A DNA stretch of 64,000 nucleotides from Clostridiales bacterium (GTDB lineage Bacteria; Bacillota; Clostridia; Peptostreptococcales; Acidaminobacteraceae). A model generated the notes under the pieces. The model was not told the DNA's origin. It searched no databases and saw nothing but the letters and a program-made list of their open reading frames with translations. The DNA is taken from positions 62,001-126,000 of the forward strand of contig JAEIOD010000002.1 in NCBI GenBank assembly GCA_016342415.1, read 5' to 3'. This document shows positions 22,615-24,655 of the stretch, piece by piece (the first letter of the stretch is position 1; each line of letters begins with the position of its first letter). The position numbers were made by a program, and so were the translations under genes.

Positions 22615-22854
22615 TTAACATTCCTCCATCAATACAATATCTCTTACGCCTACTATTTTTTCTAAATGAGCTACTGCTCTATTACAACTAAGTTCTGATG
22701 CATTCTCAAGTCTTATCTCCAAATGAGAACATGCATTAGGAGGTGATGTCATCTTCACATCACTGACCATAAATTCTTTCCTTCTCAATACACCAACAAC
22801 TTTTAGAAGTGTATCCACACCGTGATCCGCTTTTGCCTGTAAAAATCTTTCCAT
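22615..22854 (-). CDS. ilvN: acetolactate synthase small subunit (single ACT domain)
   Basis: A 79-residue protein with one ACT-like domain, from [22 protein letters not shown] to the [14 protein letters not shown] segment. This is as short as E. coli IlvM and much shorter than the 150-170 residue IlvH/IlvN, so the C-terminal domain is absent. It should bind IlvB and adjust activity or feedback inhibition. It is the first gene of the operon, with a strong AAGGAGG site, while its partner ilvB is last. The symbol ilvM would fit equally well. Confidence 0.85.
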
Positions 22855-23401
22855 CTTTTCCTCCTTTTGCTAAATTTGAATATAAAAAAAGACTCTTCCC
22901 TCTTTACGAACCATTATTCATAAAGACAAAAGAATCTTTTTATACCATTAGTTTCGCTCAGGTCGCAAGTTAATCTTGTTCAACCATATAGTCCTATATC
23001 GGGGACAACCGTTTCACCCTACTTATGTTCAGGCGAACTGCTCAGGAGCTACCATTGTATACTAATCTGTGTCAATTCTCACCAACCATTGACTCTCTAT
23101 AACAGATGTTTAGTATTTTTCTTCTCCATCAAAGCATTATCTATTAGGTCCGCTGTTTAGAGACGAATCTTAAATCCGCGGTACCACTCTAATTATACTC
23201 TCGTATCACTCTTTATCAGGTCGCAAGTAACTTGTTCAACCATATAGCCATTTAACGGTGGCAGGCGGCAACGTCTACATATCGACGTGCAGTTCAGGAG
23301 TGATTTAAGTAATAGTCTTCTTTATCATCTTTCAGCAAACGATGACTCTCTGCAAAATAGTTTCTACGACTTCTGTCTCCATCAATACTTTTGATTTATT
23401 A
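22855..23401 (-). promoter_or_regulatory. tandem T-box leader of the ilv operon
   Basis: The untranslated leader is about 546 nt from the predicted start near 23401. Two T-box-like units follow each other. Unit 1: AGAGAGTCATC (23341-23351), specifier ATC (23302-23304) before ACTCCTGA, and a perfect T-box core AGAGTGGTACCGCGG (23176-23190). Unit 2: AGAGAGTCAATGG (23086-23098), specifier GTA (23050-23052) before GCTCCTGAG, and a degenerate core TGGTAT (22942-22947). Both units share a hairpin with arms of GGTTGAACAAG and CTTGCGACC (23217-23247 and 22959-22991). The specifiers match tRNA-Ile and tRNA-Val. The pattern is that of transcription antitermination by uncharged tRNA. Presence of T-box control is confident; the exact specifier of unit 2 is less so. 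Confidence 0.88.
22884..22940 (-). terminator. regulated terminator of the T-box leader
   Basis: A long stem of about 23 pairs with some G-U (AAAGATTCTTTTGTCTTTAT with the strand beginning TTCGTAAAGAGG) around a TAATGG loop, followed by seven T on the minus strand, 30 bp before ilvN. It is the only clear terminator in the leader. Confidence 0.85.
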
Positions 23402-23407
23402 ATTGCA

Positions 23408-23436
23408 ATTATACATACGAACAAAATACATGTCAA
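23408..23436 (-). promoter_or_regulatory. promoter of the ilv operon
   Basis: Perfect consensus on the minus strand: -35 TTGACA (23431-23436), 17-bp spacer, -10 TATAAT (23408-23413). Transcription should begin near 23401. Confidence 0.92.
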
Positions 23437-23551: not shown

Positions 23552-24655
23552 TTATACTTCCAAGTTTCTCTCTTTTAATTTTTTCTCTACATATTCCTCA
23601 ATAAGTGTCTTAAATAAAACAACTACCGGTACACCAATAAACATGCCAATCACGCCATATAACGCGCCACCAGCAGTTACCGAGACAATAATCCAGAAAG
23701 CTCCAACACCCACTTTTCCACCTAGAATTTTTGGACCTAAATACAATCCATCAAATTGTTGTAAAGCAACAATTAATATAATTACCAAACCAACTTGTAT
23801 GAATGAACCACTCGCAAGCGTAACAAGTACAGCTGGCACTGCACCAATAAATGGACCAAAATATGGAATGATATTCGTTATACCAATAATGAATCCAATC
23901 GCTGGGGAGTTTGGAATCTTAAAGATCCACATCAACAAGAAACATAAAACACCAATAATGGCTGAGTCGATAATTTTTCCAACAAAGAAACTCGAAAAAA
24001 TTTCATCCGATTTATGAGCAATTCTTACCAACTCATCTGCAGTCTCTTTTTCATTAACAGCATAATTGACTCTTTTAATACGATTAAGCAAGTCTTTTTT
24101 ATCAGCTAACATATAAATTGCAACCACAAACGCCATAAAGAAACTTAATAAACTGGCAGATGCTGATCCAATACCTGAAATAACACTATTCATAATCATC
24201 GTTGATAATTCACCCACTTTTAACAAAATATCTTTCAGTGAATTTTGTACATAAAGTATCAACTCGTTGATTATGTCACTATTAATTTTGGCAATAAAGT
24301 CTTCAATGAAAGCAATATCAAAGTCTTCATTTACAAATTTCGTTATTTTTTCAACGATATCATAAGCACTGCTTACGATACTCGGAATCATAACCGCTCC
24401 AAATAAAACCAAAAATCCAATGACCAATAAAATAGATATCAGTATTGCAAAACCTCTACGAATTTTACCTCTCCCCATTTTAGTAATAAATCTTACCAGT
24501 GGATCCAATAGATAAGCAATTACAAATCCTGTTACAACAGGTGCTGTCGCTTTTTTTATAACCGGGAAAAAATCATAATGCCAAATGGTGAAATTAAAAA
24601 TAACAATTGCTACTGCTACTAGTGTTATATATGCTTTTAAAGACAGTTTTTTCAT
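23552..24655 (-). CDS. AI-2E family transporter (PerM/YdbI type membrane protein)
   Basis: A 367-residue polytopic membrane protein. It has two N-terminal helices, a middle hydrophilic part (DIAFIEDFIAKINSDIINELI), and the conserved C-terminal half with helices and the glycine/proline-rich stretches typical of the family: NIIPYFGPFIGAVPA, DGLYLGPKILGGKVGV and VTAGGALYGVIGMFIGVP. Members export AI-2 in a few cases and have been linked to sodium or other transport in others, so the substrate is not established. It is transcribed alone, with its own terminator, and lies upstream of the ilv promoter. Confidence 0.9.
   Translation of the reverse strand: MKKLSLKAYITLVAVAIVIFNFTIWHYDFFPVIKKATAPVVTGFVIAYLLDPLVRFITKMGRGKIRRGFAILISILLVIGFLVLFGAVMIPSIVSSAYDIVEKITKFVNEDFDIAFIEDFIAKINSDIINELILYVQNSLKDILLKVGELSTMIMNSVISGIGSASASLLSFFMAFVVAIYMLADKKDLLNRIKRVNYAVNEKETADELVRIAHKSDEIFSSFFVGKIIDSAIIGVLCFLLMWIFKIPNSPAIGFIIGITNIIPYFGPFIGAVPAVLVTLASGSFIQVGLVIILIVALQQFDGLYLGPKILGGKVGVGAFWIIVSVTAGGALYGVIGMFIGVPVVVLFKTLIEEYVEKKLKERNLEV

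Follow-up and report, generated by a model that had tools for sequence, protein, structure and literature searches.

The window analyzed here, a 64,000-nt stretch of contig JAEIOD010000002.1 from a Clostridiales bacterium, carries on its minus strand a leader of approximately 500 nt that lies between a promoter and a branched-chain amino acid operon (Table 1). The operon begins with an ilvN-like ORF and continues with ilvC (22613-21630), ilvD and ilvB, all gene names being read from the translations rather than obtained by family search. The same promoter is also seen in the sequence of G001, one of two congeners (G001 and G002) that we compared with the source genome. Upstream of the promoter and on the same strand lies a gene (23552-24655) for a hydrophobic membrane protein resembling AI-2E/PerM-type transporters, and because a hairpin with a T tract is visible by eye after its stop codon, readthrough from this gene into the leader is improbable. 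Rfam identifies two T-boxes on this one transcript, an isoleucine unit (unit 1) followed by a valine unit (unit 2). The only terminator of the leader follows the valine unit, and its only T-box (UGGU) antiterminator lies in the isoleucine unit.

Table 1. Features of the leader and first gene of the operon, listed in the direction of transcription; roles given as proposed or candidate are predictions.
Feature	Position	Strand	Remarks
Sigma-70 promoter, TTGACA-17-TATAAT	23408..23436	-	12/12 consensus match; upstream of both units
Unit 1, complete T-box aptamer plus antiterminator	23156..23394	-	Rfam RF00230, 108.1 bits
Isoleucine specifier ATC; next bases A and CUCC	23302..23304	-	From sequence; shared by both congeners
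Stem III hairpin of unit 1, UAUAUGGUUGAACAAG..CUUGCGACCUGA	23216..23246	-	Invariant arms also in unit 2
Antiterminator 1 (AT1), UUAGAG/CUCUAA; UGGUACC (23186-23180) is the T-box bulge	23157..23192	-	
Anti-antiterminator hairpin, T-box GGU[A]CCGC (23185-23178) with GCGGACC (23153-23147)	23147..23185	-	No T tract after
3' arm UCUCUAAACAG of the 11-bp pairing in the preliminary description	23153..23163	-	Coupling role not supported
Proposed relay strand GCGGACCUA, pairing with the unit 1 T-box or the terminator apex	23145..23153	-	
Target CUGUUAUAGAGA of the 11-bp pairing: within stem I-2, a distal helix strand and the apical T-loop AGAGA (23098-23094)	23094..23105	-	
Unit 2, T-box-like aptamer with stems I, II and IIA/B but no T-box antiterminator	22971..23141	-	Rfam 82.2 bits, below gathering
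Valine specifier GTA; next bases G and CUCC	23050..23052	-	Invariant in three species
Stem III hairpin of unit 2, terminator next	22958..22990	-	No conserved antiterminator bulge in between
Intrinsic terminator, the only one of the leader	22884..22941	-	-26 to -30 kcal/mol (three species), T7
Terminator apex GGUUCGU, candidate alternative partner of the relay strand	22906..22912	-	
Small ilvN-like ORF of ACT type (acetolactate synthase small subunit)	22615..22854	-	First gene of operon; assigned by reading the sequence

Unit 1 exceeds the RF00230 gathering score of 93 and contains every aptamer part of a class I T-box (stem I with its specifier, the T-loops, stem II and stem IIA/B), followed by an antiterminator whose UGGUACC bulge is present and whose A1 helix is invariant in the three species. 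A further segment of unit 1 near stem II/IIA-B, UUGCCGCCUGCCAC (23271-23257), is also complementary to the T-box (23186-23172), with an energy of -11.3 kcal/mol or better in all species. The tRNA loci examined include no tRNA-Ile gene, and tRNA-Val(UAC) with an ACCA end is encoded in the source genome. No T tract of at least five T occurs within 160 nt after unit 1, confirming the observation in the preliminary description that none follows this antiterminator. When we fetched 30 of the 33 T-boxes detected in the source genome, 29 possessed a T tract 8-38 nt past the antiterminator, with unit 1 being the sole exception. A consensus terminator scan likewise returned no terminator-like site in unit 1, albeit with a method that failed to flag even the evident AT-rich terminator behind unit 2. 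An overlooked terminator inside unit 1 was ruled out on these two grounds, and unit 1 therefore lacks the intrinsic terminator that competes with the antiterminator in a class I T-box.

The match of unit 2 to the Rfam model (E 3.1e-18) runs only through stem IIA/B and leaves the 3' part of the model unaligned, which accounts for a score below gathering. Stem I with its specifier, the T-loops, stem II and stem IIA/B are all present, and the unit ends in a class I terminator whose arms show compensatory changes between species, but it lacks the corresponding antiterminator. Between stem III-2 and the terminator we found no UGGN bulge conserved in the three leaders; UAAUGGUAU is present in the window and absent from G001 and G002. 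A hidden antiterminator formed by UAAUGGUAUAAAAAGAUUCUUUU was rejected as well, as this sequence occurs in the window only and is conserved in neither congener. tRNA-Val could bind unit 2, although this unit has no conserved bulge of its own for reading the charging state of the tRNA.

The same leader is found in both congeners, with 85% identity in G002 and 74% in G001, and in all three genomes of the genus it retains one layout in which an isoleucine unit with an antiterminator and no terminator leads into a valine unit that proceeds through stems I, II, IIA/B and III to the terminator with no T-box antiterminator of its own. Over this 15-26% divergence the specifiers, T-loops, F-box and T-box are invariant and compensatory pair changes occur in stem II of both units, at the base of stem I-2 and in the terminator; some distal pairs of stem I-2 are lost in G001. 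The invariant specifiers and T-loops together with the compensatory changes in the stems indicate that both units are under selection. Moreover, because neither unit is complete, with the tRNA-end sensor in one and the stop signal in the other, the units must be wired together, and we consider it very probable that two tRNA-binding units here share one terminator. The preliminary description had linked two sensors through one terminator, and this architecture stands in 3/3 genomes; the helix it proposed for their coupling does not, as described below.

In other genera of the family, the ilv operon begins with a single complete T-box (mostly Ile) that has its own terminator, and the split tandem is therefore most simply derived within the source genus. 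We scanned 391 genomes of the class with a pattern that requires GTGGTACCRYG and GAHGGAGA and so misses variants, G001 among them. The scan gave 14 matches and no second tandem without a terminator between its units: this locus was the sole tandem, and every other match was either fortuitous or a lone T-box with a terminator of its own. Among the 33 T-boxes of the source genome (G000), this leader is the only closely spaced tandem. The isoleucine T-boxes of ilv leaders in other genera of the family (L166, L169 and L163) are 283-300 nt long, with their extra sequence located within or downstream of stem II, or else around stem III, and T-boxes near ilvC in some family members (L165, L179 and L183) apparently carry a CTC (Leu) rather than an ATC (Ile) specifier. 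The bases of the stem III arms, CUAUAUGGUUGAACAAG and CUUGCGACCUGA, are identical in both units of all three species (including the equivalents at L032 and L033), while the units otherwise differ. A search of 393 genomes of the order did not turn up the exact core of these arms anywhere else; the form of the hairpin occurs family-wide, and we rejected the idea that it is an invention of the genus.

Between AT1 and stem I-2 lies a linker strand, GCGGACCUA, whose core GCGGACC (23153-23147) can pair with the T-box of unit 1. The leaders of the window and G002 both fold best into the resulting sequestering hairpin, which in G001 is the majority fold (probabilities of 0.95, 0.99 and 0.58, respectively), and its local stability in the three species is -11.5, -15.6 and -15.8 kcal/mol versus -7.5, -7.1 and -10.9 kcal/mol for AT1. 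Of the 30 T-boxes fetched, unit 1 is the one whose T-box is matched by the strongest complement downstream (-10.5 kcal/mol). On paper the sequestering hairpin and AT1 are mutually exclusive, giving unit 1 a two-state switch whose off state is not a terminator. In every species the best downstream partner of the linker is the terminator apex, with which it forms 7 bp in the window (-10.8 kcal/mol), 8 bp in G002 (-11.3 kcal/mol) and 11 bp in G001 (-14.0 kcal/mol, or -13.3 kcal/mol in the scan described next). Both pairings were recovered in a blind scan of 17,020 segment pairs from the three-species alignment, in which helices were ranked by the weakest of the three species and compared with a reversed-sequence null: by distinct helix, linker with T-box ranked third and linker with terminator apex sixth, and six distinct helices reached -10.8 kcal/mol versus one in the null. 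The strongest helix of the scan was a different one, in which the self-complementary 5' flanks of stem III, CUAUAUGG (23249-23238 and 22993-22982), could pair the two units directly over 12 bp, several of them G-U, at -12.6 kcal/mol; these flanks are invariant and covariation is mute on this helix.

From the parts of the leader, their conservation and their mutual exclusion on paper, we infer a relay between the units and an effect of this relay on termination. When uncharged tRNA-Ile is lacking, GCGGACC would mask the T-box of unit 1 and the terminator would form. Uncharged tRNA-Ile would instead pair with UGGU, allowing AT1 to form and releasing the linker, which would then pair with the terminator loop and invade the 3' arm (GGUUCGU) to slow or block termination. 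Bound to unit 2, between linker and terminator, tRNA-Val might tune the meeting of the two; alternatively, it might offer its ACCA end to the UGGU of unit 1. Taken as a whole, this explanation, a split tandem T-box with a shared antiterminator and terminator and a linker relay, is plausible without being probable. That the linker carries a signal from unit 1 to the shared terminator is, as a model, a doubtful proposition, and we are similarly hesitant about the broader notion of a two-tRNA integrator in which antiterminator and terminator are split over the units and a relay either masks the T-box or invades the terminator. Any specific role for tRNA-Val appears unlikely.

The energy of the relay is one of its weak points. 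Forcing AT1 together with the relay helix costs 11-14 kcal/mol relative to AT1 with the terminator and 13-22 kcal/mol relative to the best fold, a cost that exceeds that of ordinary antiterminators, those in the source genome lying 0-13.7 kcal/mol above the best fold. In addition, with the apex occupied the terminator could still close over its lower 11 bp, and the match between linker and apex could reflect the GGU start that the apex and the T-box have in common. Loop extension of the linker-apex helix is found in 2/3 leaders. Covariation for the relay is thin because there are only three related leaders whose apex and linker cores hardly vary, the one C-to-U change, in the linker of G001, being accommodated as a G-U pair in both pairings.

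A different coupling was put forward in the preliminary description: when uncharged tRNA-Ile is lacking, the antiterminator 3' arm UCUCUAAACAG (23163-23153) would pair with CUGUUAUAGAGA (23105-23094) and block stem I-2, and formation of AT1 would free unit 2 to sense tRNA-Val. The sequences and coordinates it gave, including UUAGAG (23192-23187) and CUCUAA (23162-23157), are exact, and the complementarity of 11 bp with one bulged A exists in the window (RNAduplex -10.1 kcal/mol, or -11.4 kcal/mol with flanks). Its target had been placed at the base and K-turn of stem I-2, a misassignment given that AGAGA is the consensus of the apical T-loop of stem I (PMC7583486) and that the K-turn lies near 23130-23120/23049-23040. 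Five of the 11 bp are AGAGA:UCUCU, which is available in any T-box with an AGAG/CUCU antiterminator, and when flanks were shuffled around fixed AGAGA/UCUCU cores, 3.2% of the shuffles equaled the energy of the helix. Its weakest value over the three species, -6.9 kcal/mol, is a level reached by 40 real and 35 reversed-null helices. With a standard core, a match in 3.2% of shuffles and a score at the level of the null, the pairing is not clearly above chance. Nor does it persist in relatives, an outcome that the preliminary description had itself named as refuting its model: G001 has 5+4 bp with the bulge elsewhere, G002 has six bp plus two scattered pairs, and only the 5-bp AGAGA/UCUCU core is retained in both. 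Forcing the helix in constrained folding raised the energy 3-7 kcal/mol above the best fold, and none of the three leaders gives it a probability above 0.03. When AT1 is open, moreover, the 3' arm is not free but is engaged, through the linker GCGGACC, in the more stable sequestering hairpin, and a released unit 2 would still be without a T-box antiterminator. Given its poor conservation, null-level energy and low probability, we rejected the coupling helix, and the mechanism built on it is highly improbable; the linker strand fits the facts better.

Three further explanations dispense with the relay. Unit 2 might act alone if the UGGU of stem III-2 (UAUAUGGUUGAAC) bound the ACCA end of uncharged tRNA-Val and thereby made CUUGCGACC available as a pairing partner for the terminator 3' arm GGUUCGURAAG. 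The UGGU and GCGACC of stem III-2 are invariant in three species, GCGACC pairs with the terminator apex at -8.5, -11.4 and -9.3 kcal/mol, and the hairpin sits where an antiterminator would start, but the same hairpin is found in unit 1 alongside a true T-box, and the single T-boxes of the family include some with hairpins of this form (GUU..CGACYUGA) that lack UGGU. As the parts of stem III-2 are invariant they yield no covariation, and action of unit 2 alone is unlikely in our view. Another arrangement would have the two units share a discriminator, with tRNA-Ile on stem I-1 or tRNA-Val on stem I-2 pairing with the UGGU of unit 1 to give an OR response through the same downstream step. This would agree with the presence of only one conserved T-box bulge in the leader and with a tRNA-Val end, ACCA, that is acceptable to UGGU; stem I-2, however, is downstream of the UGGU bulge of unit 1, which to our knowledge is the reverse of every known T-box arrangement, making such sharing quite unlikely. 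Finally, the leader might be a decayed double T-box that lost terminator 1 and antiterminator 2 by deletion, leaving a fixed attenuator to which tRNA sensing is irrelevant. Each unit does miss exactly one of the two switching halves, yet invariant specifiers, T-loops, F-box and T-box together with compensatory stems over 15-26% divergence are not expected of a dead element, and we see little likelihood of decay.

The split tandem with a linker relay, our preferred reading, can be placed among described systems. Tandem T-boxes are common and enriched at ilv genes, and they have been described as complete sensor-plus-terminator units in series that require both tRNAs to be uncharged (PMC12452182, PMC9413887). 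The present leader resembles these double T-boxes in that two units precede a clostridial branched-chain amino acid operon within a single leader, but its antiterminator and terminator are single and lie in different units, and its two specifiers differ; rather than two complete sensor and regulatory domains, each unit is without half of the switch. The closest named category is that of partially tandem T-boxes, whose "modes of action remain unknown" (PMC7583486), since stems I-III are duplicated, the antiterminator and terminator are single and the second unit is not a full T-box. Unit 1 is equipped with every aptamer part and the antiterminator of a canonical class I T-box (RF00230), but the hairpin that competes here occupies the 5' (T-box) side through the downstream GCGGACC and has no U tract. 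In this respect it is like translational (class II) T-boxes with a sequestrator and antisequestrator, where a non-terminator competing hairpin also lies downstream of the T-box, except that unit 1 is followed by a second T-box unit and not by a ribosome-binding site or gene start. Two-input gates involving T-boxes appear in a review of tandem riboswitches (PMC9481103), and in the literature searched, a set to which the primary tandem T-box surveys did not belong, we found no described case with antiterminator and terminator in separate units.

Collectively, the leader offers a compact natural case of a partially tandem T-box, with the switching halves in different units and two specifiers, in three species. 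It makes testable whether one antiterminator may act on a terminator that lies approximately 200 nt further downstream, beyond another tRNA-binding domain, and whether isoleucine and valine supply may be combined in one leader without two terminators.
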